Shown one piece after another: positions 1 to 5,436 of a stretch of DNA of 64,000 nt. The stretch comes from Oscillospiraceae bacterium. Lineage in GTDB: Bacteria; Bacillota; Clostridia; Oscillospirales; Ruminococcaceae. The stretch lies in assembly GCA_031280965.1 (NCBI GenBank), contig JAITFZ010000033.1, positions 1 through 64,000 on the forward strand. The letters are read 5' to 3'. The position numbers and the translations under genes were made by a program. Each line of letters opens with the position of its first letter. The first letter of the stretch is position 1. Under the pieces are notes generated by a model, which had not been told where the DNA came from, made no database searches, and saw only the letters and a program-made list of their open reading frames with translations.

Positions 1-279
1 CGGTGATAAATCCGTCACCGCACTGCACATAACGTAAACCTTTTTCAGATTCTTGCGGTGTTGGTGTTTCCCGCACACCTCGGCGAATCGTTCATTGCTG
101 CCGCCGCGAAATGTCTTATATGGAACGATGTTTATAACAGTTGTTTTGACCGAAATGTAGATTATTCTATGATTTTCATTGAATGGCTCTTATTTTTGAC
201 AAAAAAATTATCGGCGAACCGCTCTCCATGCGGAGTTCAGTATATTTATAAAGCGTTTTGAAATTTTACTAAAATTCTC

Positions 280-308
280 TTGACGAAAATGACGTACCAT
301 GCTACACT
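280..308 (+). promoter_or_regulatory. SigmaA-like promoter
   Basis: TTGACG (280-285), 17-nt spacer, TACACT (303-308), followed by a long non-coding leader before the ORF at 585. Confidence 0.5.
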
Positions 309-584
309 AATATATATCAAAAGAAATAACCAACACAAAATCGCTCTATATTTATATGCACCACAAAAACGCAACCACCCACGACTCGTCCCGACCAAAG
401 GCTGTCGCAGGTGGCACTCGCACTCTTAATAAGATGAACACACACGTTTGCTAAAAGAAGCACGACGTATGTTGTGCTTGCCATCTCTGTGTATTACTAT
501 ATCATGTTTTTTATTAAAAGTCAAGCGTAAATTTATAGGCAAAAGGATTTTTTTCAATAATTAAAGCTAAGGGAGTGAGAATCA

Positions 585-1421
585 ATGAAATGTACGATAA
601 AAGACATTTTAACTAAGCGCGGACTGTCAGTTCGTAAGTTTGCGGAAATGTGGGAGGGCGTTCCACACGCATTGAATTACCCCACCATCGACAATTTTAT
701 AAGAAAAGGAAGCGGAAATCTCGATACTGCATGGGCTATAACAAGAATGTTAGGTATAACGCTTGACGAAGCCTTCGTGCCGAGCAATGATGAACCGATT
801 TCGTCTGATGCAGATACAAGAGGGTATAAATATAAAGAATTCGAGGAATTGCTTAAAGAGGTAACTGCTTATCATGAAAACAATAACTCAAAAAACGTAG
901 GCGGGGTTGAAATGAATAAGTATAAAAATGAAGCACTTTTACAAAGAATAAACGAATACACGAAGAACAATTCCTCTGCAACAGGAGAAGCTGCGAAGAG
1001 ATTTGCGAAAAAACTTGAAGAACAGATAAAAAGCACAAATTTTAACTCTCCTAACTTTAATGATACTGTTATATCATTCCTTACCATAAAAGCAAAGGAA
1101 TTGAATGAGTTAGACGAAGATATAATTGTTCAATTCCTCGAAAAATGCCAACATAACCACGCACAAAGCGTTGTTGAAAGATTTGTTGATATTTGTACAT
1201 CAGCACAATTTGAAATTGAACTTGACCGCCTTACGTTTATAGGGCAATGCTTAGGCGAAACAGGATTCGATGAAGATGGCTCTCGTTGCTTTAAGCCTTT
1301 TGCGCTGTCAAGGCCGTCAGCGGCGGCTATATATCGCACGTTGTTATCGTCAAACTGTCGCTTAATCAGACCGACTTTCATGCCGCACTCGCCGAAGGCG
1401 GAATGGATGACGAGAGCATGA
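585..1421 (+). CDS. XRE/Cro-like HTH protein, element-encoded; C-terminal about 40 aa probably out of frame
   Basis: N-terminus MKCTIKDILTKRGLSVRKFAEMWEG...IDNFIRKGSGNLDTAWAITRMLGITLDE resembles an HTH_3-type domain. Confidence 0.6.
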   Translation: MKCTIKDILTKRGLSVRKFAEMWEGVPHALNYPTIDNFIRKGSGNLDTAWAITRMLGITLDEAFVPSNDEPISSDADTRGYKYKEFEELLKEVTAYHENNNSKNVGGVEMNKYKNEALLQRINEYTKNNSSATGEAAKRFAKKLEEQIKSTNFNSPNFNDTVISFLTIKAKELNELDEDIIVQFLEKCQHNHAQSVVERFVDICTSAQFEIELDRLTFIGQCLGETGFDEDGSRCFKPFALSRPSAAAIYRTLLSSNCRLIRPTFMPHSPKAEWMTRA

Positions 1422-1501
1422 GAATGGAAACGGCATTGAACAGCGAAACGTGTCAGCACATTATATTCTTGGCACAGTATAATAGTTAGGGGGATAGTAA
1501 A

Positions 1502-1714
1502 ATGGAAAAGCACGAAAAAGCACTTGACAGATTTATGGAGCAGATTTCCGAGTTCCGAGAAAGGCTCGCTGAACTTCAAGAGTTCGCAGACGAACATATG
1601 GGCTACAACCCCGATGATATAAATTGGGGACACGTTGGTACGGCGGGTTGGTACTTGGAACGGATTACCGAGTTGACGGATTGTGCTTACAAACGCGGCG
1701 AATATGCGGAGTAA
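1502..1714 (+). CDS. Small hypothetical element protein (70 aa)
   Basis: ORF with upstream purine-rich GGGGGATAGTAA; acidic/amphipathic composition. Confidence 0.5.
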   Translation: MEKHEKALDRFMEQISEFRERLAELQEFADEHMGYNPDDINWGHVGTAGWYLERITELTDCAYKRGEYAE

Positions 1715-1985
1715 GTCGAAAACATATGCGATGCCCCTGCGGTCGGCAGGGGCTTTGCTTTGCTGAAACGAGGCGATATTTGCGGAATAAGGGCGAATGA
1801 ACCGAAACCCAAGCAAACTCTCGCAAAGCCGAAAACGGCGGTATGTGGCTTGGTTATGCGGTTATTTGCAGATAGTCCTTAACAGGAACTGGCACGGGCG
1901 AATCGGACGGCGATTAAGAAAGTAACCGACATAAAAAGAACTATTATCTAAATTCGGTTCAGATAGACCGAAAGCAGAAAGCGAG

Positions 1986-2007
1986 CAGGACAATCATGCC
2001 TGCTCGT
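1986..2007 (+). terminator. Stem-loop, possible terminator
   Basis: GAGCAGG acaatcat CCTGCTC-type inverted repeat followed by a T-containing stretch. Confidence 0.35.
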
Positions 2008-2063
2008 CATTGTGCTTTTGGAAGTGCAAAAACTATACTTTCTATATAAGGGTGGATTAGGAA

Positions 2064-2258
2064 ATGAAAAACAGAGATATGACGATGACCTTGACGTTGT
2101 GCCAGACTTGTCGCAACTCATTTGACCTCATACCGGGGCGAGAACTCTTGCTTGTGCAACAGCGAACCCTTGATAAGTGCGTTTATTGCAATGTCCGTTA
2201 CGGATTCGATTATCTTCTTGTCGATAAGACAAGAAAAAACAAGCAGGCATCAATATAA
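2064..2258 (+). CDS. Small hypothetical protein with two CxxC motifs (possible zinc ribbon)
   Basis: CQTC and CVYC in a 64-aa ORF. Confidence 0.45.
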   Translation: MKNRDMTMTLTLCQTCRNSFDLIPGRELLLVQQRTLDKCVYCNVRYGFDYLLVDKTRKNKQASI

Positions 2259-2340
2259 TTCGTAGATTTTAAGTATAAATCTCGAACAACCTTAATATCA
2301 TTAAACATAGAGAAAACAACGACGGCGAGGGGGGATTAAT

Positions 2341-2472
2341 ATGAGCAATGAAGAAAAATTGAAAAACGTAGAAGTCGAGATTAAGCTACATATTAATCAA
2401 CGGCTGTACGAAAAAGGGCTTATCACGGAAGAAATGTACTCCGAAGCAAAAAATTATATTTTAACCTCTTGA
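2341..2472 (+). CDS. 43-aa protein, SHOCT-like (MSNEEKLKNVEVEIKLHINQRLYEKGLITEEMYSEAKNYILTS)
   Basis: Read directly; below the ORF-track length cutoff; GGGGGATT upstream; lies immediately upstream of the recombinase gene. Confidence 0.55.
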   Translation: MSNEEKLKNVEVEIKLHINQRLYEKGLITEEMYSEAKNYILTS

Positions 2473-2497
2473 CTTGTTGTTTTAGTTATGGTATACT
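2469..2497 (+). promoter_or_regulatory. SigmaA-like promoter of the recombinase gene
   Basis: TTGACT (2469-2474), 17-nt spacer, TATACT (2492-2497); AGGAGG RBS before ATG 2535. Confidence 0.7.
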
Positions 2498-2534
2498 GTA
2501 ACAAAGAACAAACAAAATACAGGAGGTTAATTTT

Positions 2535-4241
2535 ATGGATTTATACACTATCCGCAATTTACTCAACTCCGGCAAGAGCGTTTTTGACATTCCCATGAAG
2601 GTCACTTACTACGCAAGGGTCAGCACAGACAAAGACGAGCAACTCCATTCCCTGTCCGCACAAGTCGGGTATTACAGCGAATTCATTCAGAAAAACCCAC
2701 GGTGGACTTATGTAGAGGGTTATGTTGACGAGGGGTTGAGTGCCACAAGCGTAACCAAGCGTGAATCGTTCCTTAAAATGATTAACGATGCGAAACTCGG
2801 CAAGTTTGACTTCATCGTTACAAAAGAAATCAGCCGTTTCAGCCGCAATACCTTAGACAGTATCAAATACACGCAAGATTTATTAGCCGTAGGGGTCGGG
2901 GTTCTGTTCCAGTCCGACAACATCAACACGCTTCACGCTGACAGCGAACTTCGCCTTACTATTATGTCGAGTATCGCACAGGACGAAGTGCGGAAAATCT
3001 CCGAACGTGTCCGCTTCGGGTTCAAACGAGCCATTGATAGTGGGGTGGTTCTCGGCAGTAACAGTATCTACGGCTACGTCAAAGACAGCGGAAAGTTAGT
3101 CATTGTAGAAAAAGAAGCTGAGATGATTCGCCGAATTTACGACCTATACGTTAATAGTAAGGTGGGAATCCGTAAGATTTCCAACATCTTAGCCGAGGAA
3201 GGCTACTTCAACAAAGAGGGCAACCACTTCTCTTTCAGTACCATTAAGAATATAATATCAAATCCTAAATACAAAGGCTTCTACTGCGGAAACAAAACTC
3301 AAAAACTCGACTACCGCCGGAACGACAGAAAAGAAATCGACAGTTCCGAATGGGTAATGTACAAAGACCACGATGCTGTACCTCCGATTGTCAGCGAGGA
3401 ATTATGGGATAAAGCAAACAGAATTCTCCACAAACGCAGTGAAGCAATGGCAGACAACAAAACAAGTTACCAAAACAAGTACGCTTACAGCGGAAAAATC
3501 ATCTGCATGGAGCATAACACCTCATACCACAGAGCCGAATTCAAGTACAAAGACCATTCGAGAGAAGTATGGCGATGCAAGAAATACTCCGAGCAGGGAA
3601 AATCAATCTGCAACAGTCCTACGATTTACACAACCGAACTTGACGAAATCATGCGTAGGCTGATGAACACAATCATCACCGACAAAGCGAAGATTATCCA
3701 CGACATGATAAAAATGTACTCAGAAATCAATGCGAAATCTTCTCTCAAAACTGATATTTCCAAGACAAAAGTGGAACTCAACAGCATACTCACCATGAAA
3801 GACAAGCTGCTCGACTTGAACATCAAGGGTAAAATCGACGATGACGAGTTTGAAGTACGCAACAAGAAGTTCAACAAAGAAATGGCTGACTTAAAAGAAC
3901 GTATTGCCGACTACGAACGTCAGTCCGAACAGAACGACGAGTTCCAAAAAAGCGTAGAAGTTTTGCGTGGTGTAATCTCTAACGAATTATCCTTTGACGA
4001 TATTATCAGCGACGGAATGGTTGACAGTTTACTCGACCGAATTGAAGTTCACAAAGTGGAAGAAAAGAACAGCGTAAGATTAAAAGTGTTCCTTCGGGTC
4101 ATAGATGACTCTTCTGACTTCGATGTTACCAGAAAAAGGAACAAGCCGCCGGTCGTAACCGAGGCTTGTTCCGATAAATCCGCAAACGCCCATTTGGAGG
4201 GGAATTCTGAAAGTGTCCTTTGTTCCAATCAATATGGATAG
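2535..4241 (+). CDS. Large serine recombinase (site-specific integrase/excisionase)
   Basis: YYARVSTDKDEQLHSLSAQVGYY resolvase N-terminus, KEISRFSRNT catalytic-domain motif, recombinase domain (GYVKD...EAEMIRRIYDLY...GIRKISNIL), zinc-ribbon and coiled coil. Confidence 0.95.
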   Translation: MDLYTIRNLLNSGKSVFDIPMKVTYYARVSTDKDEQLHSLSAQVGYYSEFIQKNPRWTYVEGYVDEGLSATSVTKRESFLKMINDAKLGKFDFIVTKEISRFSRNTLDSIKYTQDLLAVGVGVLFQSDNINTLHADSELRLTIMSSIAQDEVRKISERVRFGFKRAIDSGVVLGSNSIYGYVKDSGKLVIVEKEAEMIRRIYDLYVNSKVGIRKISNILAEEGYFNKEGNHFSFSTIKNIISNPKYKGFYCGNKTQKLDYRRNDRKEIDSSEWVMYKDHDAVPPIVSEELWDKANRILHKRSEAMADNKTSYQNKYAYSGKIICMEHNTSYHRAEFKYKDHSREVWRCKKYSEQGKSICNSPTIYTTELDEIMRRLMNTIITDKAKIIHDMIKMYSEINAKSSLKTDISKTKVELNSILTMKDKLLDLNIKGKIDDDEFEVRNKKFNKEMADLKERIADYERQSEQNDEFQKSVEVLRGVISNELSFDDIISDGMVDSLLDRIEVHKVEEKNSVRLKVFLRVIDDSSDFDVTRKRNKPPVVTEACSDKSANAHLEGNSESVLCSNQYG

Positions 4242-5436
4242 ACGGCGCGGCAGCTCTCAATCTAACACCATACTTTCCACCCTGCTTGACAATTTCAGGT
4301 TCATCGAGCGATAATTCATCTATACTCGGCATAACGATTCCGTAGCCGGTCGCCTGCACTTCTTCCAGCGCGCTCTTAACTTTTTCGTACTTCTTTTTAA
4401 TTATCGCTAATTCAATCATACAAGGCATAAGGTCACTCTCATCTTTAAGCGACAGCCCCGTGGTTTCACCCAGCACACGGTAGAACAGCTCTGCTTTCAG
4501 TGTCACCGAGATAAATCCCGCGCCCCTGCCCATATCTATGGTTTCAACTTCACAGTTGCTGATATATTCGCAGTCAGGCAGATTGCAGATAACATTGTTG
4601 ATTTCGCTGATGTTTCTGATATTCTGCGCGGAATTCTTGAGCGCGGCAAAAATTTCATTCTTGAGCCAATGCCCTTTTTCTAATACCGTCAGCCACTTAG
4701 GAATTTTAATGTTAATTTCTTTAACAGGAAATTGCAGGAGAATTTCGGCTAAGACTTCGGCGATTCTGTTTTCATCGACTTCGAGGCAGTTGAGCGGAAC
4801 GACGGGTTTACCGTATTTTTCGCTCAATTCATCAGCCATAGCCTTGGATTGCTCGCTCTTCGGGTTTTGACAGTTGAGGATAATCACAAACGGTTTTTTA
4901 ATTGCCTCAAGCTCGGTTATTACACGTTCCTCGGCTTCTTCATATTCCGAGCGCGGAATGTCGGTTATGCTACCGTCCGTAGTTATAACAAGCCCGATAG
5001 TGGAATGCTCGTTAATAACTTTCTGTGTACCGACTTCGGCCGCCATGTTAAACGGCACTTCGCCCTCAAACCACGGCGTAACCACCATACGCGGCATCTC
5101 GTTCTCGATGTAGCCGATTGAACTCGGCACTATGTAGCCCACACAATCAATCAGCCGGACATTCATCACTGCATTGCCCTCAAGCTCAACCGAAATAGCT
5201 TCTTCCGGCACGAACTTAGGTTCGGTGGTCATAATAGTTTTCCCCGCCGCCGCCTGCGGAAGCTCGTCGATTGCGCGCTCACGGCGATACTCGCTCTCTA
5301 TGTTCGGAATTACGAGGCTTTGCATGAATTTTGCGATAAAGGTGGATTTCCCCGAACGCACGGGCCCGACGACGCCGATATAAATATTACCGTCCGTCCT
5401 TTGCGCGATGTCCTGATAAATGGATGTAGTAGTCAT
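4126..5436 (-). CDS. spoIVA: Stage IV sporulation protein A, 3' end missing (true homology about 4231-5436)
   Basis: YQDIAQRTDGNIYIGVVGPVRSGKSTFIAKFMQSLVIPNI...IDCVGYIVPSSIGY...TTDGSITDIPRSEYEEAEERVI...; homology stops at RLRAAAPSIHI. Confidence 0.93.
   Translation of the reverse strand: MTTTSIYQDIAQRTDGNIYIGVVGPVRSGKSTFIAKFMQSLVIPNIESEYRRERAIDELPQAAAGKTIMTTEPKFVPEEAISVELEGNAVMNVRLIDCVGYIVPSSIGYIENEMPRMVVTPWFEGEVPFNMAAEVGTQKVINEHSTIGLVITTDGSITDIPRSEYEEAEERVITELEAIKKPFVIILNCQNPKSEQSKAMADELSEKYGKPVVPLNCLEVDENRIAEVLAEILLQFPVKEINIKIPKWLTVLEKGHWLKNEIFAALKNSAQNIRNISEINNVICNLPDCEYISNCEVETIDMGRGAGFISVTLKAELFYRVLGETTGLSLKDESDLMPCMIELAIIKKKYEKVKSALEEVQATGYGIVMPSIDELSLDEPEIVKQGGKYGVRLRAAAPSIHIDWNKGHFQNSPPNGRLRIYRNKPRLRPAACSFFW

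Follow-up and report, generated by a model that had tools for sequence, protein, structure and literature searches.

We analysed a 64,000-nucleotide window from a draft Oscillospiraceae assembly (bases 1-64000 of contig C18 in genome G000; 2.01 Mb, 98.8% complete), in which the coding frame of the sporulation gene spoIVA is interrupted after codon 402 by an element that encodes a large serine recombinase (LSR) as its own site-specific recombinase and has an attachment arm matching that of related elements. The locus is likely to belong to a clade of LSR-bearing, skin-like intervening elements of spoIVA, which would be excised in the mother cell with the gene rejoined in frame. For the element family, comparison of sequences strongly supports a skin-like arrangement because the gene halves are in phase, the site is one and the same, the LSR clade is dedicated, the detached 3' half is under selection, and sister LSRs lie in sigK and spoVD. 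A reading of the window from its sequence alone had suggested a skin-like insertion; this stands for the family, while the window assembly itself is without the 3' half of the gene. As the element lies in spoIVA and outside sigK, it is not skin proper. SpoIVA initiates coat assembly and was present in all surveyed spore-forming bacilli and clostridia (PMC3533761).

The interruption of spoIVA and its attachment site

The open reading frame (ORF) at 4126-5436 on the minus strand encodes 436 residues and scored 556 bits against the SpoIVA family TIGR02836, with the match covering residues 1-402 of 492. PF09547 and PF20438 were also matched, the latter only to position 165 of 179. The spoIVA 5' part proper (4235-5436, minus strand; codons 1-402) runs to the CA of a His codon (4234-4236) that follows ..APSI, and the last 34 residues of the ORF are the antisense of the LSR 3' end. 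This agrees with the sequence-only reading, in which good SpoIVA sequence extended to ..APSIH and then gave way to recombinase antisense, with a switch near 4231-4236; the switch can be placed at 4232-4236, where ATATG is common to both sequences. The loss of the C-terminus was likewise recognised, but its size was put slightly too low at about 80 residues, as approximately 90 are missing, comprising 14 of the middle domain and the 76-position SpoIVA_C domain.

The visible part of the element occupies positions 1-4234. Window base 1 is also contig base 1, so the contig begins within the element, and the left element end with the remainder lies beyond the contig start. The LSR (568 residues; 2535-4241, plus strand) matched PF00239, PF07508 and PF13408 above cut-off, an N-terminal resolvase domain with the catalytic Ser being followed by recombinase and zinc-ribbon domains, which is the order that defines an LSR. 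The catalytic S30 is invariant across three kin. The 3' end of the LSR gene lies on the junction itself, and its stop codon is supplied by spoIVA DNA.

The junction was assigned as the left attachment site (attL; 4205-4245) and consists of the element arm (in LSR sense TTTGTTCCAATCAATA), then TG, then spoIVA; this TG is CA in spoIVA sense (4235-4236). Kin elements, in which the opposite site (attR) is also seen, are bounded by ..PSI-CA at the 5' side and CA-TATG.. at the 3' side. From the comparison of attL with attR, for which locus L103 is the most informative, we infer that CA is the crossover dinucleotide. A palindromic CATATG core, permitting either orientation, was also considered and was dropped in favour of a fixed crossover at CA because the L103 join has only CA in common. 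The two arms of the kin elements are imperfect inverted repeats of each other, ACTTCTGTTTG..CA..CAAACAGAAGT, with 17-21 of 26 positions symmetric. After CA the window arm reads TATTGATTGGAACAAAGG. Reverse-complementing the LSR-side arm of L101 and L103 gives a sequence identical to it at 15 of 18 positions; this match is in exact register and unique among 127,982 positions, the 18-base length of the comparison having been picked after the arms had been seen. The 30-base arm consensus on its own gave 17 of 30 positions and was not significant.

In the window it is the 5' half of spoIVA that adjoins the 3' end of the LSR gene, whereas in most kin it is the 3' half, and the window element is thus judged to be inverted relative to most of them. 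Since the arms are nearly symmetric, this call rests mainly on LSR position, by which the element of the congener G023 is likewise inverted.

Recurrence of the element among congeners and across GTDB

Comparison with close relatives showed that spoIVA is full length in most congeners, the SpoIVA C-terminal domain being found in 54 of the 71 genus genomes searched and nearly always within a full-length frame. In G023, however (Oscillospiraceae metagenome-assembled genome (MAG) Emb289P3bin72, WQYC01000024.1), spoIVA is cut at the same codon as in the window. Its element of 17.2 kb encodes a type I restriction-modification system as well as an LSR that shares 76% identity with the window LSR, and beyond the element, on the same strand, lies an intact SpoIVA C-terminus that is in frame once rejoined.

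GTDB genomes were scanned with an alignment of three spoIVA LSRs, and 80 loci were returned, of which 34 lie in spoIVA, 25 in sigK and 6 in spoVD, shares that are not unbiased frequencies as the scan was seeded by spoIVA LSRs. The remaining 15 could not be placed in a target gene, several of them being at contig ends. At the 34 loci with a detached SpoIVA C-terminus, this piece mostly lies directly 3' of the LSR, and in eight cases the N-terminal half is present on the same stretch. The codon cut in the window is cut in G023 and in 31 further GTDB loci, and two of the 34 (L102, L149) join approximately 7 to 12 codons downstream, at a second site. This second site is also that of G036, from another family of the order (L074, L075), where spoIVA is cut 12 codons later with ACCGAGGTC shared and the LSR and the SpoIVA C-terminus are in phase and read through as a single 625-residue frame.

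In a tree of the LSRs the target genes cluster, requiring 12 changes against 42.7 with shuffled labels, a clustering that near-copies help to produce. The clade that holds the window LSR has a support of 100/100 and comprises 27 rows, of which 24 lie in spoIVA. The spoIVA elements range in size from 3.5 to about 46 kb, and their carriers are many gut Clostridia, uncultured Bacilli and cultured isolates. Among the isolates, Marasmitruncus massiliensis has a spoIVA element of 5.2 kb, while in Flavonifractor sp. An10 a distance of 46 kb separates the two halves of spoIVA, which share a contig and a strand, and in Flavonifractor An92 the distance is 42 kb; neither Flavonifractor genome has a second copy.

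A number of related loci were noted alongside these. The An10 element (L241-L243) carries dynamin-like GTPases, a HerA-type ATPase, insertion sequence (IS) transposases and a macro-domain protein, and no phage structural genes were present among the cargo genes scanned. In Papillibacter cinnamivorans (L246, L247) the halves of spoIVA are found on separate large contigs, both away from the contig ends, and the LSR sits on a long branch. G020 (L037, contig G020:C40) has an intact spoIVA, the last 91 codons of which occur again 5.7 kb downstream in a copy that begins exactly at the CATATG attachment core behind an arm resembling that of G023; AbiE-like genes, recognised by eye, lie between the two copies, and the ratio of nonsynonymous to synonymous divergence (dN/dS) between them is 0.05. 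This spare 3' end looks like what is left of an element that either carried it in or retained it. In G021, where spoIVA is intact, an LSR of the spoIVA clade with two in-frame stops (L072/L085, G021:C7) lies away from spoIVA and is a decayed, relocated copy. Finally, a 124 kb viral contig (L162, IMGVR_UViG_3300014643_000020) ends just past an LSR of the spoIVA clade and a sequence resembling an attachment arm, and is possibly a large temperate phage that uses the spoIVA site. The SpoIVA middle domain was absent from the five IMG/VR carriers examined, and a search of phage records with the LSR gave only distant LSRs of less than 45% identity.

Rejoining and selection on the detached half

Eight records, representing seven distinct loci (L245 repeats L086), hold both halves on a single stretch, and in every one of them rejoining at CA gave a frame that stays open as far as the natural stop. 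Rejoining G023 in the same manner left the frame open across the part present on its contig. The detached C-termini contain no stops; of 43 matches, 42 are complete and the other is truncated by the edge of its contig, a few rows in this set being intact copies or duplicate entries for a locus. L088, L090 and L091, which are close carriers, have no nonsynonymous differences in the detached part at a synonymous divergence (dS) of 0.09-0.31, and in other carrier pairs dN/dS reaches at most 0.08 where dS is unsaturated. These values argue strongly that the detached SpoIVA C-termini are under purifying selection. A detached half that is both selected and free of stops is thus unlike what would be expected of a gene that is never rejoined.

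Sister recombinases in sigK and spoVD

The 25 sigK loci (L105, L107, L113, L119, L126, L127, L129, L131, L137; L106, L110-L112, L115-L118, L120, L121, L123, L124, L128, L130, L132, L146), all in Clostridia, comprise 16 in which the C-terminal half follows the LSR and 9 in which the LSR is inverted beside the N-terminal half. These represent many new skin-like elements, and their LSRs are 45-48% identical to that of the window. Both orientations of the element are thus observed in sigK as well as in spoIVA. The spoVD loci (L141, L143, L150, L151, L154, L161) belong to uncultured Bacilli, and in each the LSR lies directly 5' of a detached C-terminal part of spoVD (TIGR02214). No spoVD-intervening element was described in the literature examined.

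Promoter and other genes of the window element

Upstream of the LSR, at 2469-2497 on the plus strand, is a sigma-A-type promoter, TTGACT-N17-TATACT. Many spoIVA-clade kin have a consensus or near-consensus promoter at a similar distance, and in several of these the consensus is perfect. A conserved small ORF of 43 residues (2341-2472, plus strand) has kin in G023, L087, L094, L227 and elements of Bacilli. It matched, weakly, phrog_2996, a family of unknown function. Its kin precede the LSR in G023 and L087, and in Marasmitruncus and L227 they are the first gene behind the spoIVA 5' half. We put forward the 43-residue protein, purely as a proposal, as the best candidate for a directionality factor. 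Three further ORFs of the element lie on the plus strand, encoding 278 residues (585-1421; weakly like phage transcriptional repressors, phrog_3, E 6e-5), 70 residues (1502-1714; phrog_14596, a phage-type family of unknown function, E 6e-22) and 64 residues (2064-2258; no family match).

Proposed mechanism and alternative explanations

In the mechanism that we propose, the LSR clade would recognise one site, the APSIH-M codons of spoIVA, with ..ATA-CA-TATGATG.. as the attachment site of the uninterrupted gene (attB). The LSR would be made in growing cells from the sigma-A promoter and would use the CA in the His codon as the insertion point of the element; carrying it may cost little because spoIVA is needed in the mother cell only. 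Upon sporulation, an element-encoded directionality factor would cause the LSR to recombine attL with attR, whereby the element would leave as a circle and spoIVA would be rejoined in frame, while the forespore copy would retain the element. A sporulation-controlled factor is proposed because the skin of Clostridioides difficile works in this way, its LSR being constitutive and its directionality factor, under sigma-E and SpoIIID, confining excision to the mother cell (PMC5025042). We infer here that excision takes place, when and in which cell type it does so, which protein serves as the directionality factor, and that the window genome retains a 3' half, the mother-cell timing by analogy with known systems.

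Several observations weigh against this interpretation. A counterpart of the 43-residue ORF could not be recognised in the majority of kin elements, and a search of the compact elements for a sigma-E promoter that could serve the directionality factor gave nothing convincing. Some carriers in the pairs with low dN/dS may have gained the element separately. The arrangement in Papillibacter suggests a decayed or rearranged case, so that some carriers may be dead. Lastly, profile and protein searches found no SpoIVA C-terminal piece in positions 1-4230, as the sequence-only reading had stated, nor elsewhere in the assembly; one protein-search match in G000 sits in a chemotaxis-type gene and was set aside as chance.

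The absence of the 3' half bears most directly on the possibility that the window genome is a dead end, with an insertion at the usual site, the 3' part of spoIVA lost, and sporulation gone or waning. We consider this unlikely, although an assembly that is 98.8% complete has no SpoIVA_C match and Papillibacter shows that the halves can become separated. The contig stops within the element, however, and the far side is thus unassembled and not shown to be absent; no contig overlapping the left end of C18 was found in the G000 assembly. The 3' half was also sought through its downstream neighbour gene in G000, again with no result, but this is a weak test, as the genes that follow spoIVA vary in their order. 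An intact second spoIVA was also searched for in the assembly, and none is present. Moreover, the LSR frame, promoter and arm are all intact, and the congener G023 retains its 3' half. The sigE and SigK-type genes of G000 are uninterrupted, and therefore the sporulation programme is not plainly decayed.

More doubtful still is the proposal that spoIVA is merely a safe landing site, with no developmental cue and with carriers that are asporogenous or excise at random. It draws on the many carriers that are gut Clostridia known from MAGs alone and on the growth-type promoter of the LSR. It fits poorly, however, with detached C-termini that are stop-free and under strong purifying selection, and with the repeated occurrence of sister LSRs in sigK and spoVD, which also belong to the mother-cell programme. 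An assembly or binning chimera near 4235, raised in the sequence-only reading, is highly improbable, for while the contig is a draft ending 4.2 kb from the junction, the same junction codon and kind of LSR recur in independent assemblies, including those of cultured isolates, and the junction arm agrees with its kin at the exact base.

If the skin-like interpretation is correct, the spoIVA elements of Clostridia and uncultured Bacilli could conceivably place the onset of coat assembly under mother-cell excision at the sigma-E stage. Elements of the Marasmitruncus type have a candidate small directionality-factor gene just behind the cut and codirectional with spoIVA, and we suggest, very tentatively, that in such cases transcription of the broken gene might trigger its own repair.

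The list of developmentally rejoined genes would then grow, and 'truncated' spoIVA annotations in supposed non-sporulators could stem from such elements. The family is also a source of site-specific recombinases with readable attachment sites, and a single LSR family spread across spoIVA, sigK and spoVD offers a natural series for the evolution of recombinase target and direction. The existence of cultured carriers makes the question of excision directly testable.

Comparison with known systems

Interrupted sporulation genes named in previous studies are sigK, spsM, spoVFB, spoVR, gerE, yabG and kamA (PMC5025042, PMC10747680, PMC5595907, PMC6957869). Nothing relevant to an interruption of spoIVA was found in the literature searched, which left preprints and most subscription papers outside and is no proof of priority. 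The closest parallel is skin in sigK, with SpoIVCA in B. subtilis and the LSR CD1231 with factor CD1234 in C. difficile, which is also an LSR element splitting a mother-cell gene in frame. The C. difficile element shares the growth-type LSR promoter, and skin too is known in both orientations, which differ between B. subtilis and C. difficile (PMC5025042). In contrast, the elements described here target spoIVA at a fixed His codon and have a separate LSR clade, as seen in a comparison drawn without the SpoIVCA and CD1231 sequences. SP-beta in spsM, vfbin in spoVFB, gin in gerE, yin in yabG and phi12-5 in kamA are likewise serine-recombinase elements in sporulation genes, several of which are excised during sporulation (PMC5595907, PMC10747680, PMC6957869), but their targets are genes other than spoIVA. 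The An10 element resembles gin in that the cargo scanned is not of phage structural genes. The fdxN element of cyanobacteria (XisF) is likewise removed during development, from a gene that only a terminal cell requires, although it belongs to another phylum and another gene, and the XisF family match to the window LSR is weak (88 bits against a family cut-off of 375). Thus while the class of mechanism is known, the spoIVA target, the dedicated recombinase clade and the breadth of that clade appear to be new.

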